Of a stretch of 45,510 nucleotides of DNA, positions 1 to 30,908 are shown one piece after another. Each line of letters starts with the position of its first letter. The stretch's first letter is position 1. Location: IMG/VR virus record IMGVR_UViG_3300033153_007942, positions 1 to 45,510 of that record; one strand, written 5' to 3'. The DNA is from a virus. A model generated the notes under the pieces. The model ran no database searches, had not been told where the DNA came from, and was given only the letters and a program-made list of their open reading frames with translations. The position numbers and the translations under genes are program-made.

Positions 1-114
1 CTCCATGCAGACTCAAGGCCCGAACAACATGGACCGCGAGTATAGTTTAAACTCTTCCAAAAATGTGAATGAGTTGGAGTACGTTGGGCACCTGACCAGC
101 CTGAAGAGGTTCGA
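1..114. repeat. Terminal direct repeat, left copy (circle join)
   Basis: These 114 bases are identical to 45397-45510. The portal reading frame passes through the repeat without interruption when the ends are joined. This is what an assembler produces for a circular or circularly permuted molecule, so it is most likely an assembly overlap rather than a physical end. The unique genome length is then 45,396 bp. Confidence 0.95.
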
Positions 115-1054
115 CCCGTTGCGTTTGTACCGGGCGACCCTTATTAACCAGGAGCTGATTATCCGGGCGGATATTAACACTGCTCCGGGCGGACTGGGTA
201 TTGAGATTCTTAATCTTATGCCTGACATCGATGGCTCACATATTGGAACTGGTCTCTGTGACCCGCTGACGGATTACCAGCGTGGTTCCAATGAGTGGTA
301 CAACTTAAGAATGCGCGGCCTGGCCCTGACGGTCAACCCTGCGTACCTTGTAGACGGAAATGCGCTGCCCGACTGGGAAAAACTATATAATCATCCTCCT
401 GGAGAAATTTTTAATACTAATGGGTCCTATGATGCCAAGAGAGTTCTCCAGACACTAACTCCCCCTGATACTGCGGGGCACACCTTTGAATCGATGATGA
501 GTTTTACCCAGCAGGATGCAGCCCTGACTTCCGGCCAGTCCAATACCCGCTTCGGTAGTATTGAAGACGTGCGCCGGTCCGCGACCGAGCTGTCCAGCGT
601 GGAACGTAATGCGGATAAGCGGGTTAACAATATGATGCGGACTTTAATTCGTACTGGCCACAAGCCGACCCTGAAGGCTATGCTGGACTGGACCATGCGG
701 CGTTGGTCTACCCCGAAGGTTCTGCCACTGATTGACGAAGCAAATTTTCGCCGGTCCGTGGTCGAGCTTACTCCAGAGGACCTTCGTAATGCCAACGTGA
801 GCTTGGAGGTTATCGAACCGACTGAAGGCACCATGGACCAGCAGATGCTCTTCTTTGAAAAATTATACGGCATGGCTTTGCAGGACCCGCAGATTGACCG
901 TAACACTGCGCTGCTGGCTATGCTCCGGAATTCTAAATTGGTTAAGGACCCGATGCAATTCCTTAGCCCCAACCCCGCCCTGCTGAATGCCGAAGGTCAA
1001 GAGTTTGCCACCGGCGCAGGGGTCAACCGTATAGCAGACCAGGTGTTCTCGTGA
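2..1054 (+). CDS. Portal protein, C-terminal part (begins at 44672)
   Basis: Continuation of the portal gene across the circular join, supplying roughly the last 350 residues. The ATG at base 5 is internal, not the start. The segment holds a mixed alpha/beta middle and a helical C-terminal region rich in Arg and Asp. The stop (TGA 1052-1054) overlaps the GTG start of the next gene at 1051, indicating translational coupling in the morphogenesis operon. Confidence 0.8.
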   Translation, partial: SMQTQGPNNMDREYSLNSSKNVNELEYVGHLTSLKRFDPLRLYRATLINQELIIRADINTAPGGLGIEILNLMPDIDGSHIGTGLCDPLTDYQRGSNEWYNLRMRGLALTVNPAYLVDGNALPDWEKLYNHPPGEIFNTNGSYDAKRVLQTLTPPDTAGHTFESMMSFTQQDAALTSGQSNTRFGSIEDVRRSATELSSVERNADKRVNNMMRTLIRTGHKPTLKAMLDWTMRRWSTPKVLPLIDEANFRRSVVELTPEDLRNANVSLEVIEPTEGTMDQQMLFFEKLYGMALQDPQIDRNTALLAMLRNSKLVKDPMQFLSPNPALLNAEGQEFATGAGVNRIADQVFS

Positions 1055-2346: not shown

Positions 2347-3627
2347 ATGGCAGAATATCATTCCTCGTATGAGAATATCGTCAAAGGGATAGGTCGAGAC
2401 CTGCTCGTTGAGGATATTAACCCTTTGGTCCAGTTTGTAGCTGACCAGAGTGGTCTTGCTATGCTGAAACTCATGGGTGGTGTAGTGCCCAATGCGAAGC
2501 TCGGCTCCGGTTTTAAGAGCCAGCCTTCCATTATCCGCACGAAGCCCCTCAAGAGTATTGAGGCAAAGTGGATTAAACAGGGCGTTCCGCTCAAGGACAT
2601 GGTTATCAACGGTGCTCTTACCGTGGAAACCGCCCTTGTAGTTACTGCGGGAACTTACCCCCGGGCTTCCGTGGGTTCACTGTATGAAATCATTCACCCG
2701 TCTTCCGGCGCACGTCTGGAACTTATCTGGCTTCGCACAGAGAATGGCGCGAACACCGTTGGTGTAGAGCGTAACATTGGTGGAACGGCCAATGCTGTGA
2801 TACCGGATGCTTCCATTCTACGGCGCAGGTCCCACATTGTTGCGGACTATTCCAGCCGGCAGAAGGTGCATGACATCGACCCGACCACTGTAACCAACTT
2901 CTCGGAGTCCATCCGGGTAGACTGGGATATCACCCTCAAAGGTGCCGCAGTGGAAGAGTATGGTGAACTCAATAACCCGGAAGTTATCAAACGGCGCAAG
3001 CTGTATGAATTCTCCAAATATATGAATTTCGATTCATTGTTTGGCAAGAAGGATAATTTCCTGAATGCAGCGGGCGACCGTGTACAGACCATGGACGGGC
3101 TCACTGAGCTTATCGTCACTCATCTGTACCAGAGCGGCGCGACTGCAGGGTTCCCCACGGGCCACGGTGGTGCTATCACTGAAACCAAATATCGTAACAC
3201 CTTCCTGCGTAAGCTCACAAGGTTTATGCCCGAAGACCAGAACGACATGCTCGTTCTTATCGGCGGATTAATGGAAGAAGCCATCGATAAATGGTTCGGT
3301 GACAGAATCAGCAACGTGAAACAGGATGAATTAATCCTGGGCTGGAACGTGTCCACCATAATGGTGAACGGTAAACGTTTCCATCACGTTTTTGATGCCT
3401 CCGTTGACGGCGTTGACCCCGGTATGGCCATCGCCTTCCCGCGTGATGCAGTAACCTACCGCCCGACCGTGAATAACGGTATCAACCTGGATAAGAAGCA
3501 CTACGAAGTGCGCTCCATGGTTACGGGCGGAACCAAGGTTGGTGGATTCTACATGGTAGATTTCACAATCGAGCTTGGCTGGGAGCAGGGTTGCGGTGTC
3601 ATGTCAGGGGTAACTTCTTACAGCTAA
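2347..3627 (+). CDS. Major capsid protein
   Basis: A 426-residue protein with strong ribosome site AAAAGGAG (2332-2339) and an isolated transcript position: preceded by the scaffold and followed by a stable hairpin at 3634-3665. Length, position and the mixed alpha/beta sequence fit an HK97-fold major head protein; it resembles the SU10/DUF5309-type capsid group as I remember it, though I could not align it. The N-terminus (residues 1-60) looks helical with a Gly-rich loop, and residues about 90-160 are beta-rich. It would form the icosahedral shell assembled on the scaffold. Confidence 0.85.
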   Translation: MAEYHSSYENIVKGIGRDLLVEDINPLVQFVADQSGLAMLKLMGGVVPNAKLGSGFKSQPSIIRTKPLKSIEAKWIKQGVPLKDMVINGALTVETALVVTAGTYPRASVGSLYEIIHPSSGARLELIWLRTENGANTVGVERNIGGTANAVIPDASILRRRSHIVADYSSRQKVHDIDPTTVTNFSESIRVDWDITLKGAAVEEYGELNNPEVIKRRKLYEFSKYMNFDSLFGKKDNFLNAAGDRVQTMDGLTELIVTHLYQSGATAGFPTGHGGAITETKYRNTFLRKLTRFMPEDQNDMLVLIGGLMEEAIDKWFGDRISNVKQDELILGWNVSTIMVNGKRFHHVFDASVDGVDPGMAIAFPRDAVTYRPTVNNGINLDKKHYEVRSMVTGGTKVGGFYMVDFTIELGWEQGCGVMSGVTSYS

Positions 3628-5068: not shown

Positions 5069-7158
5069 CCGTCAACAATCACGTCTCCGGCGTAATCCGG
5101 AGTATTAGTCCAACTTCAGATAAGTATCCTGTTGATGGTTGGTCTGATGCCCGTAACGTCTACCCGGCCGGGACTGAGATATTCCGGAGACCAGGTTCTT
5201 CAGGGCTCAATAGCTCCCAGCCGTTTACCGGTAAAACTTTTCGCAGCAGCGTAGCGGTGTCCATTGGTGTGAAGGATTATTTGCTGCAGCACTGGGGAGA
5301 TAAACTTTACCTGGTTCAGGTGGACGGTGTTGGAAATACGGTTGAGTTAGGAACGGTATACGATGACAGGTCTCAGTTTATCAGGTATGGTGAGTATATC
5401 GTGCTGGCTATCGATGAGTGGGGTATAGCCGGTACACTGACCACCCATGCTCATAATTATTTGATATGGTGGGGTTCTGGTATTTTTGAATTTCGCCGTA
5501 TGGGTATACCTGAATTTCTTGATTCCTTACTTACTGACATTGCTCTCAGTCAGCCAGGCGGTGTAGGTAACATGGAGCCCGGTGTTTACCGGTATATGTT
5601 TACCATGTCAATATGGGACGGCTCTACTATGATTAGTGAGGGCGGGGGATTTAATGAGATAGCGAATGTGAAGGAAATATCCTGGACCTCTGCGGTCGGT
5701 AACAAGAATACTCAGTTGGATTTTTCTGGGAACCTGCTTTCGGCAAACATGCCGGACTGGGTTACCCATATTAATATTTTCCGGACAATTAATATCGACT
5801 TCCTGGATTACTCGAAAGAAGATGTGTACCACGATTCCGAGAAGTCTTCTCCAATTTACCCCTACTATCGTTTCGTGGATAAGGTGGCTATTGGTGCCAC
5901 TCCGTATACCTATGTGGATTCCTTGTCAGACGTGGACCTGCGGAAGATTACGGACACTTATGATACTCGCGGTTATAAGCCAGTACCAGTAATCCATCTT
6001 GGTCTTGGTGCTCCGAACGGTAAACTGTTTTTTACAGACAGTACCACTGAGGGTAACGTTTACTTTACGCAGGGTGCCCCGGCTCCGAATAAAAAGATAA
6101 CTAAGCACATGGAGAGTTTTGCTGCTGGGTTAGGTCACTGGCTTGAAATTAGCACTGAAATGTATTCCGGAGTGAATGGCCTGGAGATGTCACCATTGGG
6201 TGATTTAATGATACAGACAATTTCCTCTACCCACACAGTACGAGAAGCGGACCCGTTCAGGGTTAACTTTTTGGGAGAGACAACCGGCAACCTTCCTGTT
6301 ATGGTAGAGGAGGCCCACGGGTGTCTGAACTCTAATCTTAATGTTGTTGGCCGGGACGGGCTGCTGTACGTGTTCGGCCGAAAGGGATATCTGCCCTTTG
6401 ATGGTTCAAAGTTCCTCGATGTTAATGCCGGTTTCCGGGACTGGTTCAGTGAGCTTAACTTGGCCCACCTGGATAGCAGGTTCAACATCTCAAAAATGCG
6501 TGGAGCGTTTTTCCCTGGCTCTTCAAAGAAGATGCCGGACGGGTCCACGGGAGTTGACCAAATTTTAGTTGCATATCCTTCAGTTCATGGAGGGACCCTG
6601 GACCAGGTTGCAGCTATCCTGTTTAATAACAAACCGGACAACCACGAGAAGGTCCTGACTATCTATGACGGCTTTGACGATATCGTTTCTCTGGACCTGA
6701 GCCCTTATGGCCGGGAGATGCTGCTTACAGAGGCTACTGACGAACTCACTTACAGATATCTTAATCCAGGCTCGGAGCGGGACAAGGAAGGCACTGCGAA
6801 CGTAAAGCGGATAGAAGCCTGGTTTGATACTCGGGAGTTTAACTTTCCGGATATCATAGATTATACCGTGTATGCGGACCGGGTTATCGTTAAGGTGGGT
6901 AACATGGATGAAGAGCTGATTATCATTCCAATTTTTGATGACATAATTAACCGGCGTAACGTGAAGACGATAATACCGAACATAGATAACCAGAGACTTA
7001 TAGCCAACGATGCGCGGGTCTCCAAAACTTACGAGGCCCAGTTTGACGACGAGGCCTACGGAAATTACTTAAAATTCAGGTTTTACTATAGGAGCCTTAA
7101 GCCTTATCGTATCGAAACTCTGAAGTACAAATTCTTTCAAGGGGAGCGAGTGGTCTAA
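5059..7158 (+). CDS. Tail nozzle / tail tubular protein B-like
   Basis: A 699-residue beta-rich protein starting at GTG 5059. The N-terminal segment (about residues 28-50) has the pattern DARNVYPAGTEIFRRPGSS, resembling the conserved start of podovirus nozzle proteins (T7 gp12-like, P22 gp10-like), in which an Asn-rich strand is followed by a G-x-x-x-x-RPG turn. Many W/Y/F and G residues and repeated beta strands suit the beta-propeller nozzle that forms the distal tail tube. It follows the adaptor gene directly and its stop overlaps the next ATG. This is the main evidence for podovirus morphology. Confidence 0.7.
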   Translation: MDITVNNHVSGVIRSISPTSDKYPVDGWSDARNVYPAGTEIFRRPGSSGLNSSQPFTGKTFRSSVAVSIGVKDYLLQHWGDKLYLVQVDGVGNTVELGTVYDDRSQFIRYGEYIVLAIDEWGIAGTLTTHAHNYLIWWGSGIFEFRRMGIPEFLDSLLTDIALSQPGGVGNMEPGVYRYMFTMSIWDGSTMISEGGGFNEIANVKEISWTSAVGNKNTQLDFSGNLLSANMPDWVTHINIFRTINIDFLDYSKEDVYHDSEKSSPIYPYYRFVDKVAIGATPYTYVDSLSDVDLRKITDTYDTRGYKPVPVIHLGLGAPNGKLFFTDSTTEGNVYFTQGAPAPNKKITKHMESFAAGLGHWLEISTEMYSGVNGLEMSPLGDLMIQTISSTHTVREADPFRVNFLGETTGNLPVMVEEAHGCLNSNLNVVGRDGLLYVFGRKGYLPFDGSKFLDVNAGFRDWFSELNLAHLDSRFNISKMRGAFFPGSSKKMPDGSTGVDQILVAYPSVHGGTLDQVAAILFNNKPDNHEKVLTIYDGFDDIVSLDLSPYGREMLLTEATDELTYRYLNPGSERDKEGTANVKRIEAWFDTREFNFPDIIDYTVYADRVIVKVGNMDEELIIIPIFDDIINRRNVKTIIPNIDNQRLIANDARVSKTYEAQFDDEAYGNYLKFRFYYRSLKPYRIETLKYKFFQGERVV

Positions 7159-7523
7159 TGGATGCAGTGAGTTTTAACCCCGGTCAGTGGCCGGGCATTA
7201 AGAATGTGATATGGGCTGTGATTTGCTTAGGCGGAACCGGAGTCGGTATCCTGGGACTGCAGCAGCTAAGACTAACCTGGACGGCTTTACAGGCTCGGAA
7301 GGAAAAAAAGTTGGAGAAGGAGGCCGGACCTGTGGAAGATGCAAACGTGAAAAAGATAGCTGAGGCAGTTGCCGGTGCTTTTGATGTCCGGGATAAAATT
7401 AACAGTATGGCCGAGGCCTTGGTCAGGATAGAGCATAATCAGGAATTAATTTTTGGGGAACAGAAAAGCCAGGGTGAGCGTATTGCCAGCCTGGAAGGCA
7501 TGACTAAAAAACCAGGTTCATAA
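7158..7523 (+). CDS. Small membrane protein with C-terminal coiled coil (holin- or XhlA-like topology)
   Basis: A 121-residue protein whose ATG overlaps the preceding stop. Residues about 16-36 are one hydrophobic membrane segment. Residues about 45-60 are a charged Lys/Glu linker. The rest is helical and coiled-coil-like (EALVRIEHNQELIFGEQ). One membrane span plus a coiled coil recalls XhlA/hemolysin-type holin accessories and some spanins, but its place between nozzle and spike genes also allows a virion membrane-contact role. Function not settled. Confidence 0.65.
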   Translation: MDAVSFNPGQWPGIKNVIWAVICLGGTGVGILGLQQLRLTWTALQARKEKKLEKEAGPVEDANVKKIAEAVAGAFDVRDKINSMAEALVRIEHNQELIFGEQKSQGERIASLEGMTKKPGS

Positions 7524-7539
7524 ATTAAAGGAGTTTAAC

Positions 7540-8298
7540 ATGAGCGAATTTGCACAGTTTTTACCGTCTGACGTAGCCAGAAATTTTGATGCAGACGTAT
7601 CTGCAGGGCGTTACCAGGACCTAACCTCTGACGATAAGTTCGGGGAGAACGCGGACATCGACGGAGCTGCCGAGGATATCTGGGACGGTGGTGCCGATTG
7701 GGTTCCGCCCACGGAAGCTCGGGTCCATGCCATAGTTTCCACGGACAACACCCAGGATAAGCCGGCAGGCACGGGAGCCCTCACTGTGCGTGTGTATGGT
7801 CTGGATGCGAGTTTCTTGGAAGTGACGGACGATATCATACTGAACGGGACCACTCCGGTTAATACACCCAAGTCTTATCTTATGATTTACCGGTTAGAAG
7901 TTCTTACGGCTGGCTCCGGAGGCTCTAACGTGGGTGATATAACCGCGACCGCAGCCGTAGACGGCACCGTGACCGCTAAGATACTCATCGGCAATAATCA
8001 GACTCTCATGGCCATCTACCAGGTGCCTGCCAGCAAGACTCTGTTGCTGAGAAACATTTATGCCTACATGACGAAGAAGGTAGCTGCAATTGCCCAGGTT
8101 AGACTTTGGGTGAAACCTCTCGGCAGTGTGTGGCAGCTTAAAAAGACTTTTACTTTAAACGCTACTGGCAGCACTTTTGTAGACCTGGACTATGCCCACA
8201 AAGCTATTGCAGAAAAGTCTCTGATTAAAATCAGTGCAGACACGGACACGGCGAACACCGGTGTAGGCGCAGGGTTCAACTTTAAACTGCAGAGCTGA
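7540..8298 (+). CDS. Tail-associated structural protein (beta-rich)
   Basis: A 252-residue protein with AAAGGAG ribosome site. It contains EDIWDGGADWVPP (about residues 45-57) followed by a GTGALTVRVYGLD pattern. As I recall it, this combination is seen in many environmental podovirus virion proteins beside the tail fibres: an IWDGG turn, then a strand with GxGAxTVxxxGLD. The rest is beta-sandwich-like. It probably belongs to the fibre/spike complex or a head fibre. A related short motif occurs in the 53-residue gene at 11896. Confidence 0.6.
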   Translation: MSEFAQFLPSDVARNFDADVSAGRYQDLTSDDKFGENADIDGAAEDIWDGGADWVPPTEARVHAIVSTDNTQDKPAGTGALTVRVYGLDASFLEVTDDIILNGTTPVNTPKSYLMIYRLEVLTAGSGGSNVGDITATAAVDGTVTAKILIGNNQTLMAIYQVPASKTLLLRNIYAYMTKKVAAIAQVRLWVKPLGSVWQLKKTFTLNATGSTFVDLDYAHKAIAEKSLIKISADTDTANTGVGAGFNFKLQS

Positions 8299-15353: not shown

Positions 15354-15722
15354 ATGTTTAGAGCAATAATGATTTTAATTTTGGGTACGTTCGTTGCCCC
15401 TCTGTTTGCCTTCGAGCCTATTAGCCTGACCACGGCCATAATAATCAGTGCCTTGATGAGTGCGGCCAGTACCGGCATAACCGCTGGTGTCAGTGCCAGT
15501 AGTGCGAGTAAGGACCGAACAGCAAAGGCAGACGAGTTGGCTAAGTCTTACGCATTGCAGAACCAGGCTATGGGCCAGGAGTTCCTTCAGAATAAACGGG
15601 AGCAGTATTTGGAACGTCTCCAGGAGGCTGATGCCATGGCCGAGCTGGTCCAGGTGGATGCCGAAAACAGAACAGGCTCGGCCGACCTGTTTGCAACTCA
15701 ATCATTTAGACCAGGAGCATAA
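15354..15722 (+). CDS. Small ejection-type membrane protein (gp14-like position)
   Basis: A 122-residue protein with AAGGAG upstream. Residues 1-20 are a hydrophobic, signal-like helix (MFRAIMILILGTFVAPLFAF); residues about 26-48 are a second small-residue-rich membrane helix with AxxxS packing; the remainder is a charged helix. Two N-terminal hydrophobic segments plus a helical tail fit the small internal virion protein that inserts into the host outer membrane during podovirus ejection (T7 gp14-like role). Homology is not shown, only topology and context. Confidence 0.55.
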   Translation: MFRAIMILILGTFVAPLFAFEPISLTTAIIISALMSAASTGITAGVSASSASKDRTAKADELAKSYALQNQAMGQEFLQNKREQYLERLQEADAMAELVQVDAENRTGSADLFATQSFRPGA

Positions 15723-15723
15723 T

Positions 15724-16188
15724 ATGGGATTCGCTGATGTAGGTTTTAACTCGAATTTTTTGGACCCTGAAAGTTTTGCTGACCGCCCGCTTACGGGTTA
15801 CACTGCCGGCCAGCAGGCCGCTCAGAATGCGGGGGTGTCTCCGTCAGGTGCCGGCTCAGCAGCTGATTCGTTAGCCAAGCCTGCGGGCACAGGCCTTGCG
15901 GCCGAGGATAAGGCCACGTTGGCCGCTGGTGGCATAAAGGCAGCGAGTAAGGTGATATCGTCTCTCGTGGCTCTTAACCAGTCCAACCAGGACAGGGAGC
16001 AGCGGACTGAGGCTTTCAATGCCAACCTATCGTTGAAGCGTAAAGCTCTGATGCTGGATTACCTTATGGGTAACCGTAGTTACCGTGAAAAAATAAAGCT
16101 GATTAAAATGGCTCTGTCTCAATCCCTGGGACGGAGGTCGGACCGGCAGGGACGTGCAGCCAATTTGGCGACTGCGAGAAGGAGGTAG
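15724..16188 (+). CDS. Probable ejection protein
   Basis: A 154-residue protein. The ATG at 15724, just after an AGGAG site, is preferred over upstream in-frame starts that would overlap the preceding gene. The first half is Ala/Gly-rich with small residues (GYTAGQQAAQNAG). The second is a strongly basic helix (KRKALMLDYLMGNRSYREKIK) ending in Arg-rich sequence. It is embedded in the ejection-protein block; a DNA- or membrane-associated internal virion protein is plausible. Family not recognised. Confidence 0.6.
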   Translation: MGFADVGFNSNFLDPESFADRPLTGYTAGQQAAQNAGVSPSGAGSAADSLAKPAGTGLAAEDKATLAAGGIKAASKVISSLVALNQSNQDREQRTEAFNANLSLKRKALMLDYLMGNRSYREKIKLIKMALSQSLGRRSDRQGRAANLATARRR

Positions 16189-16190
16189 TC

Positions 16191-17213
16191 ATGCCAGGAG
16201 ATTATGTAAAATTTGAAACTGGTCTGGAGGATATCGCTGAGTCAGTGCTGGCCGTGGGTAAGAACATGGAACGGCGGACCGCTAACAATAAGTTAATCGG
16301 TAACGTTGTCCAGACCATCGGCCGGGACGATACCCGAGATGCCGCTATTGACCAGATGTTACAGATATCCCTGGACTTTGCGAAAGCCGGCAAGCCCGAG
16401 GAGTCTCAGCATTTCTTGGATAAGGCCATGAGCCGGACCGGAAAAATTATCGATGGCAAGAAGGAGTTTAAAGGTAAAATCGCAGAGGTGACGTATAAGA
16501 AGGGTGTAATTAATTACGAAAAAGCCGTTAACGATAAAGCTAAAACGGAGCAGGAAAAGGCTGACGGCATGAAGTGGCTGGTTGATGCTGACTTTGCTAC
16601 CATCGAAAGTTCAAAGCGCAGGGAACGGCTTGAGAGAGGCAAATCTCTGGGCATAGCTTTAAACGACCCGAAGATACTGTTCAACCTTCGTAATAAAATA
16701 GCCGGCGAAGATGCCGCACGTTTACGGGAGGAGAGACGGCTCGGTGTTACTTCCGTAAAATCCCAGTTGTCAGTTGTCCGTGAGGACAAACGGGCTGTTA
16801 TCTCTGAGCAGAAAAGAAACACGGCCTTAATCAATAAAGCCAATGCCGCTGCATCGGAACGTCCAGCTTATGGTAAGAAGGCCCAGATAGAATTTGACAC
16901 CAACCAGGCTAAGATTATTACGGCCGCTCAGACAGCGAACGATGAGCTGGACCTGGAGAAATTTGAATTGATTAAACAGGAGTCCGAGTTGTTGCTGAAG
17001 TCCGGAGAGACACCAACCAAATATGCCCAGGAGCGTAAGATGGTTACGGACTCTATCCAGGAGTGGATGAATCTCGGGAAAACTTTCAGGGAAGCAGCTG
17101 CAGCTGTGGATGCCACTTTAAACAATCCCGCAGACCGTAAAGCGGCCGGGATAACCCAGGGAACCAGTTTAGCGGATTACCGCATAGACTATACAAAACC
17201 AGAAAAAAAGTAG
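16191..17213 (+). CDS. Helical internal virion protein
   Basis: A 340-residue, almost entirely alpha-helical protein rich in K, E, A and R with coiled-coil segments, starting at ATG 16191 behind AAGGAGG (16179-16185). Length and position before the giant protein match the middle-sized internal core protein of T7-like podoviruses (gp15-like), which with the giant protein forms the conduit for DNA across the cell envelope. No homology can be claimed from the sequence alone. Confidence 0.6.
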   Translation: MPGDYVKFETGLEDIAESVLAVGKNMERRTANNKLIGNVVQTIGRDDTRDAAIDQMLQISLDFAKAGKPEESQHFLDKAMSRTGKIIDGKKEFKGKIAEVTYKKGVINYEKAVNDKAKTEQEKADGMKWLVDADFATIESSKRRERLERGKSLGIALNDPKILFNLRNKIAGEDAARLREERRLGVTSVKSQLSVVREDKRAVISEQKRNTALINKANAAASERPAYGKKAQIEFDTNQAKIITAAQTANDELDLEKFELIKQESELLLKSGETPTKYAQERKMVTDSIQEWMNLGKTFREAAAAVDATLNNPADRKAAGITQGTSLADYRIDYTKPEKK

Positions 17214-17222
17214 GAGGGCGTA

Positions 17223-20200
17223 ATGCCGAGCTTATTTGAATTGTCCCGGGCGCGGGCTGCTGAGGAAGAGCAGGCTGCACAGACAACGGGTGCCCGGGCA
17301 TCCACGGAACTAAAGATACCAACACCAGACCCCGCCACTTCGGCGGACCCAGCTCCGGCCGAGAGTACAGGTGTTCCCGCCCCTCGTCCAGCGAACGAGC
17401 TTAACCCTCTTTTCCGGCAGTCACTTTCCCAGGAAGTTTTGAACTTACCCGCACCGTCAGACCAGGTGCCGGCCGAGGACCTTCCGGATATACCTTCCCT
17501 GGAATCGCTTCTTCCAAAGATTGACCCTACCAATGAAGATTTTACTGTTAAGGACGAGCCGGATAAAACTCAGACCCCTGGTATTGAGAAACCTAAAATG
17601 GGAACCTGGAATGACGAGGCTCTTAACAGTGTAATGACCAGGCGTAATATGTTGGCCGGCGATTATCTCCGTAAAATGTTCTTGGCTAAGCGTGATGGAC
17701 TTGTCGAAAACGGTATGGCACCAGGTCAGGCAGCTGCTGTTTCGTACCAGCAGATTATGGAGAACAAGGAGGATTTTAAAAAGGCTCACTTCTATGCTGA
17801 CGATATTGTGTACAGTGAAATGCTTAAGCAGGTACAGGAGGCAGGAGCCAGCTCGACTGTTATTGATAAATGGTTGAAGAGTGCCGGCGAAGGTTTCACG
17901 TCCGGAGGGACGAAGAGGTTGGGTAGTACGATGACTCCGATTGACCATTACCTGGCCACTATGCCGGGAGATTTGAGAGATGAATTGCTGGCGCAGGATA
18001 ATGGAAAGAAGTGGTTGAACCGGTGGAACTCTGCTCTCGGGTTTACTGCCAACGTGACTGGCTCCCTGCCGTTTATGAAGGGTGTTAATACTGTCTGGTC
18101 CAAAGGTGCTGCCAGGTTGGTTGGTAAGGAAAAAATGATTATGCCTATGTGGGCGAAGAGTGTGGCCGCGAGTGGTGCTTTTACTTCTCTGAGCGTGGCT
18201 CAGTCCATAGCGGACCCGGATGCTCAGCTGGAGCTGGCGCATATTGGTAAGTCCGCTTTACTGGGTGCCTTCCTACCCTGGGTAAATAAAATACCAGGCA
18301 TAGGGAACCTGGAGACAGCGGCTACAAATACTGCGGCCGCAGGTAAGCTCATTGGCCAGATGCTTCCCGTGGGTCTGGGTGCGGCCACGGCTGATATGGT
18401 AGGACATTGGCTGCATGGCCGGTCTTGGTCCGACCTGTCCGGTCAGGAGAAGAGTGCTATATTCGTTAACGTAGGAACCTTGCTGGCATTCCATACCGTG
18501 GGCGGTTTAAGCGGCCTGGCGGAAATGGGTAAGATGCAACGGCAGATGTTGGCCAAATTGGAGAAAGAGGGAATTTCCCCTGAGCAGGCGGCTAAATTTG
18601 CCTTATCCAAGGATAAAGCCGGGGAATTGCTCGATTTAAAGGTAAAAGAGCGTGTTCAGCAGGAATTTGAGAAAAGCCAGGAGAAGCCCGCTGAGCCCCG
18701 TAAAGAGGGTGAGAGGCGCAAGGAGCCGGGTGAGGTCCCGGAAGGGGAGCAGGAACGCCGTAAACTCGCTGACAGGCGGACCCTGGCCAAGCAGAGACTC
18801 AATGAAACGGTGGAAATGGCCAAGCTGGATAAAACGGTCCAGGAGCAGCTGATTACCCGGGAAATGAAAACAATAGAGAGTAACGAGAAAATAACGTATA
18901 AAGCTGAGCATGACAAACTGACGGATATGATAAACCTCCACGGAGCGGAGAGTCGTAATTACGTGGATAAAGAGGGCAAGGTTAATGTAGACCACGTTTA
19001 CATTGACTTGGATAATTTTAAGCCGACCAATGACGGGTTCAGCCATGCGGCCGGGAACACAGCCCTGAAGTTATTTACCGAAAGTCTCAATACGCATTTA
19101 ATAAAGACCGGGTTGGCAAAGGACCTATATAGAATAGGTGGAGATGAGTTCGGAGTCATCAAATCGGAAGGAACGAGCAATAAAGCCCTGTTAGCCGGCA
19201 TAGGTCTTGCTCGTAAACAGTACAAGGAAACCACTCTTAAGTTTTTAAAAGGACTCGAACCGAACCCGGAGGGCAAGGAGATAGCCCGTAAATTATTGGA
19301 AGAGGACCAACCAACGTTTACGGCGGCTTTCGCTAAGACGGAAGAACTGTCCGAGGGCATGGTCAGCACTTTTAAGAAAAAGGGTAAGGGCAAATTTAAA
19401 GGTAAAACATTTTTTGAAGGGAAGGTTTATGAGCCAGATATTAAAATTGTCGAACGCGGAGCTGGAGCAGGCAAACAAGGACTTCCAGAACTTCCAGCAG
19501 AGCCAAGGGAAGTCCTCAGCCGAGCCCCAAAAAATTACAAGGAACTCGATAGCCAGATTAGGGCGGCTGAAAGCGAAATCGACCGGCTTACGGCAACGGC
19601 TGACAAACTTGAGAGCGAAGTAAAGCCCGGCCAGCCTCTCGGGAAAAAACGTGAGGCAGAGGTAGCAGCCCTGGATAAGGAAGTCGAACGTATCCAGAAC
19701 CTGCAGGACCAGCTGCTCGATATTAAAACCGACCAGGAGCGTGGCCAGGTTAAGCTGGACACTGAGGCCCTGGCAAAAGCCGAGGACCTGTTTGCTAAAG
19801 GCAAGGGTGGTCGTGAAAAAGAAATTGCGGACCTGAGTGAGGAGTGGCGGGGCCTGTTGGATAAAACCGGAGAGCCCCTTCCGGAAAACAAAGTGCGGGC
19901 TGATGAGATAGAGGCTCGTATCGCTGAGTTGTCTACGGCCAAGTTCGACCCGGGCAGTGTGGAGCTGGCTAAATCTGATTTCGTTTTTCCGGAGGGTCAG
20001 GTTAAATTCCTGAGAACACCTGCGGCCGTAAAGTATTCCAAAGTACGCTTGCTTAAGATGGACGTGGGTGAGCTGGCCAAAGTCGCGGAATCCCTGGAAG
20101 TTAAAGTGGATAAGGCTACGCTGACAGACCCGAAGGCAAAAGAGGAGCTGGCCCTGCGTATCCTGAAACAGCAGGCCGGTGTTCCGGACCCGAAAGACGT

Positions 20201-23200
20201 GAAGGCCGAACCAGGTATCACTAAAGAAGAGAAGGTGGATATCGCCGGCTACATGGACGGGCTTCAGAAACAGGAAGCAGCTGCCACGGTAACCGGCAAA
20301 GGTTTCTCTGCCAAAAAGGCATCCGGTAAAAAAGTAAAGCGTTCCAAGTTAGCTCAGCAGGTCCGGCAAAAAGAACTGGACCGTGAAATGGAAGAGGCTG
20401 ACAATGCGAAGGGTAAGTCCGACCGGATAGTTCAGAACACTTTTGAGGTGGGCGATTCCGAAATAAAAGTTACCGAGATTAAAGAATCCAAGCTCAGTAA
20501 AATGTATGTGATGATGAAAGACCATCTGTACAACCTGCGCCGATTCCCTGAGCTGTACCTGACCGGCCGGACCATGGGCGGACTCGCGGCCGGCAAACAG
20601 AAAGACCACGTAAGGGACCTGGTGGATATGAAAAAAGGACCGTTCCGTGATATGGATAACCAGGATTACCAGCGTATGAGTCAGCAGTACTGGCTTAAGA
20701 ATTATGCTAACTGGGACGAGCTGGGTATGCGGACCTCTGACGTGACCGCGACCATGGCCTATAACCAATTAAATAAGCTGAAACAAAAGTGGGGTCCTGA
20801 GAAATATGAGTTCTACGAAAAGCGTGGAGCTGAGCTTGCCAAAATGAATGACGAGCTGTTGGATTTCCTGGTGGACATGGAATACATACACGAGGACCTG
20901 GCCGTTAACCTGAAGAAAAAGTATGACCACTTTCTCCGGACGGAGGTATTGGATACCGGGCTGGACCACCTTTTGGGTGAGGGCTTTTCTACCCGTGCCG
21001 GTATTGGTCGTGTGGACCGGGGTATTCTTAATAGAAAGTTAGGGACCACAAAGAAATTGGAGAAGGACCTGATTAAGCTGACGGCCAATTCAATCAGCCG
21101 GAAAGTGATAGCCGGCTACAAACAACGGTTTGTGAATGACGTGGCCCAGGAGGTCGGTACTCCTATCGGTATCACCCTTTGGAATGAAGGCAAAGTCCGT
21201 GTACCCACTGAGAAGGGTGGGGAGTTCCAGTCAACCAATGTCTATACCAAGCTGCAGACTGACGTGCTTCCGGAATACCTGAAGGCTAAGGTTGTGCCGG
21301 CCGGGCATAAAAAGATGGCCAGCAGTACCCGTAAACCTAATGCCAATGAAATTGACTGGATAATGGAAACCTTCTCAAAGGACGTGAAGAGAAATATGGT
21401 TAACCGTCTGAAGGTTGATTCAAAAAGTATTTCTACGGAGCAGATGCGGGACTGGGTGAAGGACCACGTAAACTTGCAACATGCTATACCTGAGACCATT
21501 CATAATATGATGGACGGTGTGGAGAATATCAGCTTCGATGTGGTGACCCGGGCTATGGGTGCTTACAATAATATCTTTAAGGCCGGTGCCACTACTCAGC
21601 GGTATGCTTTTATTTTTACGAACCCTATGCGAGATTTGCAGGATTTCCTCTTCCGTTCAAAAGTGAAGGGTGCCAAGGCAAGCCGAACTGAGGTCCTGGG
21701 CCATGCTTCCGTTATCGCACTGGCTGAAGCCTTCGGGGTGGAGACTAAGACTCTGCGTGAGATGCGAGAGGCTGGTACTGATTTTGGCGGTCTGTATAAC
21801 TCCATCGGTCGGAGCGTTCAGAAACCTTTGGCACTGGAGTCGCCGGGTAAACAAAAAATCCGTATAACGAAGGAAGCCATACTGCTGCCGATAATAACTC
21901 TTCCGGAAAAGTTAGGCAAGGCTGGTGAGCGTTTGACCAGGACCGCTGAGTGGCTGCGGGCTAAGTCTGCCGGCATACCTAACAAGGAAGCTGCTTTGCT
22001 GGTCCGCGATATCTCTATTGATTTTCAGAAAATGGGAACGGTCGGCCGGGTGTTCAATACCTGGGTGCCGTTTTTTAATGCAGCCATCCAGGGTACTGGT
22101 AACACTGCCAGGTTTATTAAGGAACGGCCGCTACTGGCAGCTGGCCGCACGGCCGCTACGGTGATAGCTCCCTACATTGCGCTGAAGGAATGGAACACCT
22201 CTTTTGAAGCGGACGTGGATATTCCAAAAAATATTAAGGAACGTGAGTGGTATTGGATTATCCCGGATATCGAAGCCTTGAAGAACGGTCAGCTGAAAGC
22301 TGCACTCGTTACTAACGAAGACGGGTCCACGGTTCCCGTACTGCTCACTGCAAAGAAGAGTGAGTGGGCAGCTGCGGTTACAGGTACAGTTGATGCTGTA
22401 TTGGGTCAGGCACTCTTTCCGCAGGACATAGAAAAACTGAGGGAAGTTAGTACCGGTAAAGCTTTAGCCTCGGTAGCCATGGGTTGGGCAAGTGAGTGGG
22501 GTCTGAGTGCAGCTCCCCCTCTGCCACGTACTGCCTTGGAAGTGGCCAGCGGTTACAACTTCTATTATAAACAACCACTGGTCTCCCCGTCTGTTTCTAA
22601 GCGGAAGCCGGAGCACCAGGTCCGGTCTGGTACACCTAACCTGCCTCGGCGTATAGGGGAGGCTGTCCACGTATCTCCGGAGAAACTGAATCACATGGTT
22701 ACCTCTATCCTGCCGCAGACCAAGCAGTGGCTCAGCACTGTTAATCCTTTGTTTGAGAGTAGTGGACCGGATGCTACCAATTACAGTATCCGTGGGAATA
22801 AGATAGAGACAGCTTCCAAGTTTTTACCGTTAGCTAAGACCCCGCACTTTAAGGAAACCAGGACCATCGTTACGGACTTTAAGAAAAAGTTTATGGCAAA
22901 CAAAACCTCCCTGGCTTTCCTTATTGAGGACCGGGCTGCACGGATGGAAGAAGCCCTGCAGAGAGGTGACACGGCTGAAGAGGACCGGCTGGATAAAAAC
23001 CTGGAGTACCTGGTGGAGGAGTATTATAAAACTGTGGAGCCTAATGTTAAGAAAGCCAATGCCACCCTTAACGGAATATATAAAAAGGTGCAGGACCGGA
23101 AGGCGAGGAAGCTGGAAAATATGTCCGGTTTTGAAGAGGCCATGGATGATGCCAGTGGTGTAATTCAAAAAGCATTTGTCAGAGAGAAGGGAGATATCCT

Positions 23201-23219
23201 CGATGATATTGAACGTTGA
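17223..23219 (+). CDS. Giant 1,998-residue polyvalent/ejection protein with GGDEF domain
   Basis: Largest gene of the genome, ribosome site GGAGG just upstream. Residues 1-125 are Pro/Ala-rich; about 300-430 hold several hydrophobic helices; about 555-725 match a GGDEF (diguanylate cyclase) domain: HDKLTDMINLHGAE start, metal-site DLDNFK (Asp595, Asp597), a TNDGFSHAAGNTAL block, and YRIGGDEFGV with GGDEF at 639-643. The RxxD inhibitory site is absent. About 770-900 is coiled coil. Near 1600-1630, FNTWVPFFNAAIQGTGN resembles the LPD38 region of phage polyvalent proteins. Such giants are packaged and injected with the DNA (T7 gp16-like role). It may therefore deliver a nucleotide cyclase or a cyclic-nucleotide-binding domain. 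Gene and ejection role are fairly sure; enzyme activity is inference. Confidence 0.8.
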   Translation: MPSLFELSRARAAEEEQAAQTTGARASTELKIPTPDPATSADPAPAESTGVPAPRPANELNPLFRQSLSQEVLNLPAPSDQVPAEDLPDIPSLESLLPKIDPTNEDFTVKDEPDKTQTPGIEKPKMGTWNDEALNSVMTRRNMLAGDYLRKMFLAKRDGLVENGMAPGQAAAVSYQQIMENKEDFKKAHFYADDIVYSEMLKQVQEAGASSTVIDKWLKSAGEGFTSGGTKRLGSTMTPIDHYLATMPGDLRDELLAQDNGKKWLNRWNSALGFTANVTGSLPFMKGVNTVWSKGAARLVGKEKMIMPMWAKSVAASGAFTSLSVAQSIADPDAQLELAHIGKSALLGAFLPWVNKIPGIGNLETAATNTAAAGKLIGQMLPVGLGAATADMVGHWLHGRSWSDLSGQEKSAIFVNVGTLLAFHTVGGLSGLAEMGKMQRQMLAKLEKEGISPEQAAKFALSKDKAGELLDLKVKERVQQEFEKSQEKPAEPRKEGERRKEPGEVPEGEQERRKLADRRTLAKQRLNETVEMAKLDKTVQEQLITREMKTIESNEKITYKAEHDKLTDMINLHGAESRNYVDKEGKVNVDHVYIDLDNFKPTNDGFSHAAGNTALKLFTESLNTHLIKTGLAKDLYRIGGDEFGVIKSEGTSNKALLAGIGLARKQYKETTLKFLKGLEPNPEGKEIARKLLEEDQPTFTAAFAKTEELSEGMVSTFKKKGKGKFKGKTFFEGKVYEPDIKIVERGAGAGKQGLPELPAEPREVLSRAPKNYKELDSQIRAAESEIDRLTATADKLESEVKPGQPLGKKREAEVAALDKEVERIQNLQDQLLDIKTDQERGQVKLDTEALAKAEDLFAKGKGGREKEIADLSEEWRGLLDKTGEPLPENKVRADEIEARIAELSTAKFDPGSVELAKSDFVFPEGQVKFLRTPAAVKYSKVRLLKMDVGELAKVAESLEVKVDKATLTDPKAKEELALRILKQQAGVPDPKDVKAEPGITKEEKVDIAGYMDGLQKQEAAATVTGKGFSAKKASGKKVKRSKLAQQVRQKELDREMEEADNAKGKSDRIVQNTFEVGDSEIKVTEIKESKLSKMYVMMKDHLYNLRRFPELYLTGRTMGGLAAGKQKDHVRDLVDMKKGPFRDMDNQDYQRMSQQYWLKNYANWDELGMRTSDVTATMAYNQLNKLKQKWGPEKYEFYEKRGAELAKMNDELLDFLVDMEYIHEDLAVNLKKKYDHFLRTEVLDTGLDHLLGEGFSTRAGIGRVDRGILNRKLGTTKKLEKDLIKLTANSISRKVIAGYKQRFVNDVAQEVGTPIGITLWNEGKVRVPTEKGGEFQSTNVYTKLQTDVLPEYLKAKVVPAGHKKMASSTRKPNANEIDWIMETFSKDVKRNMVNRLKVDSKSISTEQMRDWVKDHVNLQHAIPETIHNMMDGVENISFDVVTRAMGAYNNIFKAGATTQRYAFIFTNPMRDLQDFLFRSKVKGAKASRTEVLGHASVIALAEAFGVETKTLREMREAGTDFGGLYNSIGRSVQKPLALESPGKQKIRITKEAILLPIITLPEKLGKAGERLTRTAEWLRAKSAGIPNKEAALLVRDISIDFQKMGTVGRVFNTWVPFFNAAIQGTGNTARFIKERPLLAAGRTAATVIAPYIALKEWNTSFEADVDIPKNIKEREWYWIIPDIEALKNGQLKAALVTNEDGSTVPVLLTAKKSEWAAAVTGTVDAVLGQALFPQDIEKLREVSTGKALASVAMGWASEWGLSAAPPLPRTALEVASGYNFYYKQPLVSPSVSKRKPEHQVRSGTPNLPRRIGEAVHVSPEKLNHMVTSILPQTKQWLSTVNPLFESSGPDATNYSIRGNKIETASKFLPLAKTPHFKETRTIVTDFKKKFMANKTSLAFLIEDRAARMEEALQRGDTAEEDRLDKNLEYLVEEYYKTVEPNVKKANATLNGIYKKVQDRKARKLENMSGFEEAMDDASGVIQKAFVREKGDILDDIER

Positions 23220-30407: not shown

Positions 30408-30908
30408 ATGAAAGCTATAGTAGGCGTGACCGGCCGTGGCGGGTCCGGTAAATCAACATTCTGTTTAAGGCAAAAGTTTATGGTGCTCCACGGTAAAATT
30501 CTCCGGAAGAAATACGGTGCGGATTATTTTGCCAATAACCCTAAGCCGTATGCGCCGGCCGAGATGGAGGAAGAGGCCCGGGCCATAGTGCGAACCGGTA
30601 TCCTGGATGCTCCGGACAACAGCATCGTTTATATAGATGGTATGCCACGGGATGCCGGCCAGGTAGCCTGGCTCCAGGATTACTGTAAAAAGGAAGGACA
30701 TCAATTAAGTTTTATACTGGTCCAATGTGATGACGAGAAACGTGTCACCAGGCTCTCTGCACGGTCTACGGCCGCTGAGATGGAAATGGTGGCCATGCGG
30801 GAACTGAAGGAATGCACGGGCTTGTTTGCTGCCCTCACGGATATCGTGGCCTCCGGTCTGCAGGTAAGCGTAATCGATAATACACAGGACCAACACGATG
30901 TCCAATAG
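30408..30908 (+). CDS. P-loop nucleoside/nucleotide kinase-like protein
   Basis: A 166-residue protein with a textbook Walker A near the N-terminus (GVTGRGGSGKST, residues about 6-17), a strand ending VYIDGMPRDAGQ (Asp of the substrate site) and a RLSARS lid-like arginine segment. This is the adenylate-kinase/AAA_17-like arrangement. It may phosphorylate a (deoxy)nucleotide for phage DNA synthesis. The AAAGGAG site is just upstream; the last 11 bases overlap the helicase start. Confidence 0.7.
   Translation: MKAIVGVTGRGGSGKSTFCLRQKFMVLHGKILRKKYGADYFANNPKPYAPAEMEEEARAIVRTGILDAPDNSIVYIDGMPRDAGQVAWLQDYCKKEGHQLSFILVQCDDEKRVTRLSARSTAAEMEMVAMRELKECTGLFAALTDIVASGLQVSVIDNTQDQHDVQ

Follow-up and report, generated by a model that had tools for sequence, protein, structure and literature searches.

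Can a giant phage protein carry a nucleotide cyclase into the cell that the phage infects? The question is raised by a 45.5-kb contig from IMG/VR (record IMGVR_UViG_3300033153_007942; the whole stretch of 45,510 nucleotides is referred to here as the window). One of its genes encodes a protein of 1,998 amino acids (aa), in which the original prediction placed a GGDEF domain, the domain of diguanylate cyclases (DGCs), at residues 556-742 (18890-19450). The GGDEF-fold domain is genuine and lies far above chance. The most likely reading, with a probability of about 0.5, is that the protein is a nucleotide cyclase brought in by the virion to perturb cyclic-dinucleotide signalling or defence in the host. 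As far as sequence and structural model can indicate, this reading draws on the fold, the metal-binding and catalytic acidic residues, a long helix, an LPD38 tail and a neighbourhood of late and head genes.

A GGDEF domain in a giant polyvalent protein

Two Pfam domains score over their curated cut-offs in the giant protein: GGDEF (PF00990, residues 562-656, E 5.6e-9, with 36.4 bits where 23.8 are required) and, near the C-terminus, LPD38. Five unnamed PHROG families also match the GGDEF region (E 1.8e-5 to 7.5e-15), with a sixth matching more weakly. With phmmer, the region finds about 40 DGC or GGDEF chains among the sequences of the Protein Data Bank (PDB), including TpbB/YfiN (1.9e-7), DgcZ, WspR and PleD. 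An AlphaFold model of residues 520-745, built with 44 sequences (the window and viral loci), has a mean predicted local distance difference test score (pLDDT) of 80.5, with most core blocks at about 90-98, and consists of a long helix (521-562) leading into the GGDEF fold. Foldseek retrieves 70 PDB matches for this model at E<=1e-3. Among the matches listed, 50 out of 50 are GGDEF or DGC entries, some of them GTP-bound, and the helix-GGDEF layout resembles the coiled coil-GGDEF arrangement of DgcB (6ttr). Matches in BFVD include GGDEF proteins from Bordetella phage CN1 and from two Bacillus phages, G and SP-15. As Pfam, PHROG, PDB sequence and fold matches agree, the observation is real and not due to chance; the profile search and structure prediction that had been proposed as checks both find the domain, the latter as a confident core. 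No membrane segment ahead of the GGDEF domain that is common to relatives was found in a hydrophobicity scan.

The protein is large and multidomain and carries an LPD-type module, as polyvalent proteins do, and LPD38 thus bears out the expectation of an LPD module. Residues 1419-1851 have counterparts in giant proteins from phages of Vibrio and Pelagibacter and in a DarB-like antirestriction gene of VvAW1, with a best tblastn E of 1e-12 at about 25% identity, and residues 1429-1652 are matched by a PHROG giant-protein family of 3,427 positions. A recent insertion of the GGDEF domain was considered and rejected: the G+C content of third codon positions at residues 501-700 resembles that of the rest of the gene, and dips only at 701-800.

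Active site and base-reading residue

The motifs HDKLTDMINL, DLDNFK and YRIGGDEFGV occur in the order and spacing first described, with HxxLT (D564-L566-T567), DLDNFK (595-600), N603-D604, H608, G611 and GGDEF (639-643) all in the places given. D595, K600, N603, D604, H608, G611, D641 and E642 are all present. Of the residues expected in an active DGC, the protein has the signature [G/A/S]G[D/E]E[F/Y] (G639-F643), the first metal-binding Asp (D595) and the guanine-contacting Asn (N603). It does not have the Asp that reads the Watson-Crick face of the base, since SHAAGN stands where canonical cyclases read GHxxGD, and the position is filled by Asn612. Nor is this residue the Ser or Thr that accompanies GGDE[F/Y] in the Hypr enzymes. 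The claim that metal-binding and signature residues are intact therefore stands for D595, K600, N603, D641 and E642, and fails at residue 612. The naming of Asp597 as a metal residue is not followed here, as the metal in PleD is bound by the first Asp, equivalent to D595, and by the third position of GGDEF, equivalent to D641, a pair to which Asp597 does not belong. There is no RxxD inhibitory site (I-site) upstream of GGDEF in the giant protein sequence, as had been stated.

The position of Asn612 corresponds to Asp344 of PleD. The residue at this position touches the Watson-Crick face of the base, and is Asp in canonical enzymes and Ser or Thr in Hypr enzymes, for instance Ser348 in GmGacA, which makes cyclic GMP-AMP (PMC6456294). 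The product ratio of mCpol enzymes shifts with a Ser/Asn change at a position that recognises the base, though not necessarily the position of Asn612 (PMC12657218). Asn612 may relax base choice, and its presence makes plain synthesis of cyclic di-GMP (c-di-GMP) less certain. By itself, Asn at this position does not mean that function is lost.

In an alignment of 45 diverged domains, which are 18-27% identical to the window domain, the base-reading column holds 35 Asp and 10 Asn, the Asn rows having partly been picked by an Asn pattern. D595 is invariant, although it belonged to the search motif. Residues outside the search motifs give cleaner evidence of conservation, because the motif residues served to find the relatives. 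Lys720, which lies outside all motifs but in a low-confidence part of the model, is Lys in 44 of the 44 rows with a letter in that column, and we take it tentatively as the counterpart of the phosphate-binding Lys442 of PleD. Asn571 (41/45) and Thr567 (39/45) are also kept.

Exact motif scans of the viral contig collection (viral_contigs) found the Asn variant in 10 places, six of them in giant or polyvalent-type open reading frames (ORFs; loci L144, L146, L147, L148, L150 and L151), and the Asp form at at least 80 loci, with four giant or polyvalent-type ORFs among those listed. Relative to the listed Asp loci, Asn is enriched in giants (Fisher p about 6e-5 with classification by hand, 3e-3 with a 900-aa length rule). 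Among cellular cyclases of 149 other Pseudomonadota genomes, there was one Asn pattern match against 2,567 Asp matches. Asn-type cyclases are found in many phyla in the bacterial collection (genome_contigs), the 80 listed all being of ordinary size (<=1,369 aa) with no giant among them, and this rules out the idea that only phages have this Asn. Asn at the base-reading position is therefore recurrent in phage giants and rare in Pseudomonadota, but not phage-only.

GGDEF domains in other giant phage proteins

An alignment-led scan of IMG/VR together with motif scans identified GGDEF in about 24 more phage proteins, giant or fragmentary, the giants being about 1,500-4,800 aa long with one to two GGDEF copies per contig. 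Fourteen phage contigs were searched whole; each has one GGDEF domain except L151, which has two, and all lie within ORFs of about 2,000-4,800 aa. The search for homologues with the same fusion, which had also been proposed, found LPD38 alongside GGDEF in four of the eight giants scanned with Pfam (L091, L118, L121 and L151). Other domains in these proteins are ART-PolyVal (L121, L151), LPD1 and LPD5 (L151), LPD22 (L075) and RadC (L119, L121). L091 has a DNA-ejection-protein gene (phrog_4287, E 1.1e-23) three genes upstream of its giant gene, and L094 and L119 show weak virion-protein matches upstream of theirs.

The two GGDEF domains of L151 (IMGVR_UViG_3300007896_000003, 6096-7676) lie 297 residues apart in a protein of 3,447 aa. 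The first is Asp-type and the second Asn-type at the base-reading position, and they are sisters in both trees described below. A variant motif, DxNxFGxINK, with an intact GGDEF is seen in the giant protein of L099 (around 10100) and in Myxococcus phage Mx1. The Mx1 protein is the product of a small 'nucleotide cyclase' gene (L057, 8860-9591) between the genes for the prohead protease and the major capsid protein.

A tblastn search with the window domain in phage records mostly retrieved unannotated faecal 'Bacteriophage sp.' scaffolds and the like. At least seven unverified human-faeces scaffolds (MT835xxx-MT839xxx) hold cellular-type DGCs and look like host contamination. All seven examined carry ordinary cellular-type cyclases of 531-892 aa, and the faecal scaffolds were not used as phage relatives for this reason.

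Phylogeny and known systems

When the tree includes 30 cellular rows, there is support (97/86) for a group of 24 giants and 10 solo phage GGDEFs. The window domain falls among the cellular rows on a branch of 1.96; a single phage clade including the window is not rejected (approximately unbiased test, p-AU 0.373). When 51 cellular rows are included, what holds is a core (98/81) made up of 20 giants and six solo phage proteins, and the window domain is unplaced, on a branch of 2.44. L075, L099, L118, L095/L097 and the window fall outside the core in this second tree, so that a single clade of all phage GGDEFs, supported in the first tree apart from the window, no longer holds here. The core takes in the small Yuavirus-type GGDEF. 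Thus, as a core of giants and solo proteins holds while other giants scatter, there is one main phage lineage, and GGDEF has probably been recruited into phages on further occasions. In cultured phages, 47 of 48 records found by tblastn with the L148 domain come from Bordetella phages or from Pseudomonas phages, most of the latter Yuavirus-like.

GGDEF domains in phage polyvalent proteins, with the idea of a role in conflict or interference, were published by Iyer et al. in 2017 (PMC5512222). The window protein is therefore of a kind already described, and the expectation of an undescribed system has to be given up. As far as the available part of that paper goes, its polyvalent proteins (Acetonema longum prophage WP_004096050) resemble the window in having GGDEF within a multidomain giant phage protein, and both delivery and a role in nucleotide signalling are proposed, as they are here. 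GGDEF is called 'not very widespread' in that part of the text, which holds no residue analysis. Unlike that set, as described there, the window protein has only GGDEF and LPD38 as recognised domains, carries Asn612 and comes from an SU10-like phage without close relatives.

Canonical DGCs (PleD, WspR, TpbB/YfiN and DgcB) share with the window domain the fold, the helix-GGDEF layout and D595, K600, N603, D641 and E642. Unlike them, the window domain has Asn at the position of PleD Asp344, no I-site and a divergent C-terminal part, and lies mid-chain in a phage protein. The Hypr cyclic GMP-AMP synthases (GacA, Bd0367) are similar in combining a non-Asp base-reading residue with GGDEF and not GGEEF, but the residue is Ser or Thr in these and Asn in the window. 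The solo GGDEFs of Yuavirus (YuA gp44, Churro_042) and Vojvodinavirus phages are likewise phage GGDEFs, and are the closest cultured relatives of the giant lineage (about 31-40% identity to L148). Unlike the window domain, they are encoded by separate genes near replication and antirestriction genes, and that of Churro, at about 157 aa, has Asp at the base-reading position.

Possible function

If the giant protein is a delivered cyclase, it would be packaged in the virion and would enter the cell with the DNA. Two copies, each with a bound nucleoside triphosphate, would then pair via the helix and the GGDEF domains and would produce a cyclic dinucleotide within the first minutes of infection, c-di-GMP being the default guess. 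The resulting pulse would disturb host signalling, or saturate or mislead a cyclic-nucleotide defence. As the enzyme lacks an I-site, the usual product inhibition would be missing. Several points weigh against this. The Pfam match covers only profile positions 2-97 of 161, the C-terminal part being divergent, and from residue 707 onward the pLDDT is below 50, so the tail of the domain is poorly modelled. Asn612 replaces the guanine-reading Asp, and a D-to-S swap at this position kills four of five canonical cyclases (PMC6456294); no test of Asn there in a GGDEF enzyme was found in the literature search. The invariance of the acidic motifs among relatives is partly due to selection, because those residues were in the search patterns. 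The two small genes just upstream of the giant gene have no family match in PHROG or Pfam, and a search of viral_contigs gave no close relative for the giant protein or its GGDEF domain, nor for the terminase or the DNA polymerase. Finally, activity, packaging and injection of the giant protein are inferred from sequence and model.

Catalytically dead GGDEF receptors are common in bacteria, and the domain could instead have lost catalysis and still bind GTP or a cyclic dinucleotide, so that it would serve the delivered protein as a sponge or as a ligand-gated module. This is rather unlikely, although it would suit Asn612, the divergent C-terminal part, the lack of an I-site and the further changes in some relatives (DANNFGQINK in L099, DMNDFGQINK in Mx1), and phages do use nucleotide sponges such as Acb2 (PMC12657218). 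However, Asp595, Lys600, Asp641 and Glu642 are all kept, metal-binding and catalytic acids would be superfluous in a pure binder, and a sponge without an I-site would have to use the active site. The same retention of active-site residues despite divergence, also seen in giants with quite different other domains, makes it unlikely that the fold is an enzyme relic whose only role in a large ejection protein is in structure or oligomerisation. That explanation would account for the low identity to other GGDEFs (about 20-25%), the very long branch in both trees and the alignment of about half of the Pfam profile.

An active cyclase might also be made late and act in the producing cell without being injected, like the solo GGDEFs, which sit away from virion genes in cultured phages and are the nearest cultured kin of the giants. 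A lysogen of Bordetella phage LK3, which has a solo GGDEF gene, overproduces biofilm, although the cause is not proven (PMC8471281). We regard this as improbable for the window protein. Equally doubtful is a specific version of delivery in which an injected Asn-type cyclase makes a product other than c-di-GMP (mixed or adenine-containing) that would act at entry against cyclic-nucleotide defences, either as a decoy or as a competitor; the Asp-type and Asn-type domains of L151 would suit this version as a hetero-pair built into one protein.

Were the delivered domain active on arrival, the phage would set the host second-messenger level before its own gene expression. Such early control has been predicted already, apparently without a test in the literature searched, where no activity test of a GGDEF in a phage polyvalent protein was apparent either. 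The identity of the product may hinge on a single residue, Asp or Asn. The survey adds giant GGDEF-LPD38 proteins in several phage contigs, and a lineage that includes small YuA-type proteins of culturable phages.

Gene neighbourhood and other features

The giant gene is preceded by the genes for portal and capsid, both SU10-like, by a tail-like gene and, directly upstream, by two small genes (Table 1), an order compatible with the ejection block named in the original prediction. The two small genes resemble in size those preceding the giant genes in L091 and L119; homology between phages among the genes adjoining the giant gene was not detectable.

Table 1. Positions of the giant protein, its parts and upstream genes in the window.
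Feature	Position	Strand	Evidence
SU10-like portal protein	5-1054	+	Pfam PF23899, E 4.8e-11
SU10-like major capsid protein	2347-3627	+	Pfam PF17236, E 3.1e-8
ORF of <=233 aa that probably starts internally; possible internal virion protein	15487-16188	+	Position and size only
Charged protein of 340 aa directly upstream of giant gene; possible internal virion protein	16191-17213	+	Position and size only
Polyvalent-type giant protein	17223-23219	+	ORF without internal stops; Pfam GGDEF and LPD38
Predicted long coiled-coil-like helix, residues 521-562, into GGDEF	18783-18908	+	AlphaFold model; 6ttr layout
GGDEF nucleotide-cyclase domain, residues 562-721	18906-19385	+	Pfam, PDB phmmer, AlphaFold, Foldseek; low confidence from residue 707 onward
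DLDNFK, residues 595-600 (metal Asp595; Lys600)	19005-19022	+	Sequence reading
Asn612, base-reading position	19056-19058	+	Sequence reading; alignment; role from PMC6456294
GGDEF signature, residues 639-643	19137-19151	+	Sequence reading
Lys720, tentative equivalent of PleD Lys442	19380-19382	+	Alignment column
C-terminal region, residues 1419-1851	21477-22775	+	tblastn to phage giant proteins
LPD38, residues 1745-1842	22455-22748	+	Pfam, E 7e-9

No close relative of the window capsid protein was found in cultured phages. The window phage, with its SU10-like portal and capsid, appears as an orphan lineage: in the collections searched, neither the polymerase, the terminase, the capsid nor the giant protein led to a close relative. 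Elsewhere in the window, positions 30408-30908 encode a P-loop protein of 166 aa that resembles adenylate and other nucleotide kinases (AAA_18, E 3.6e-8).
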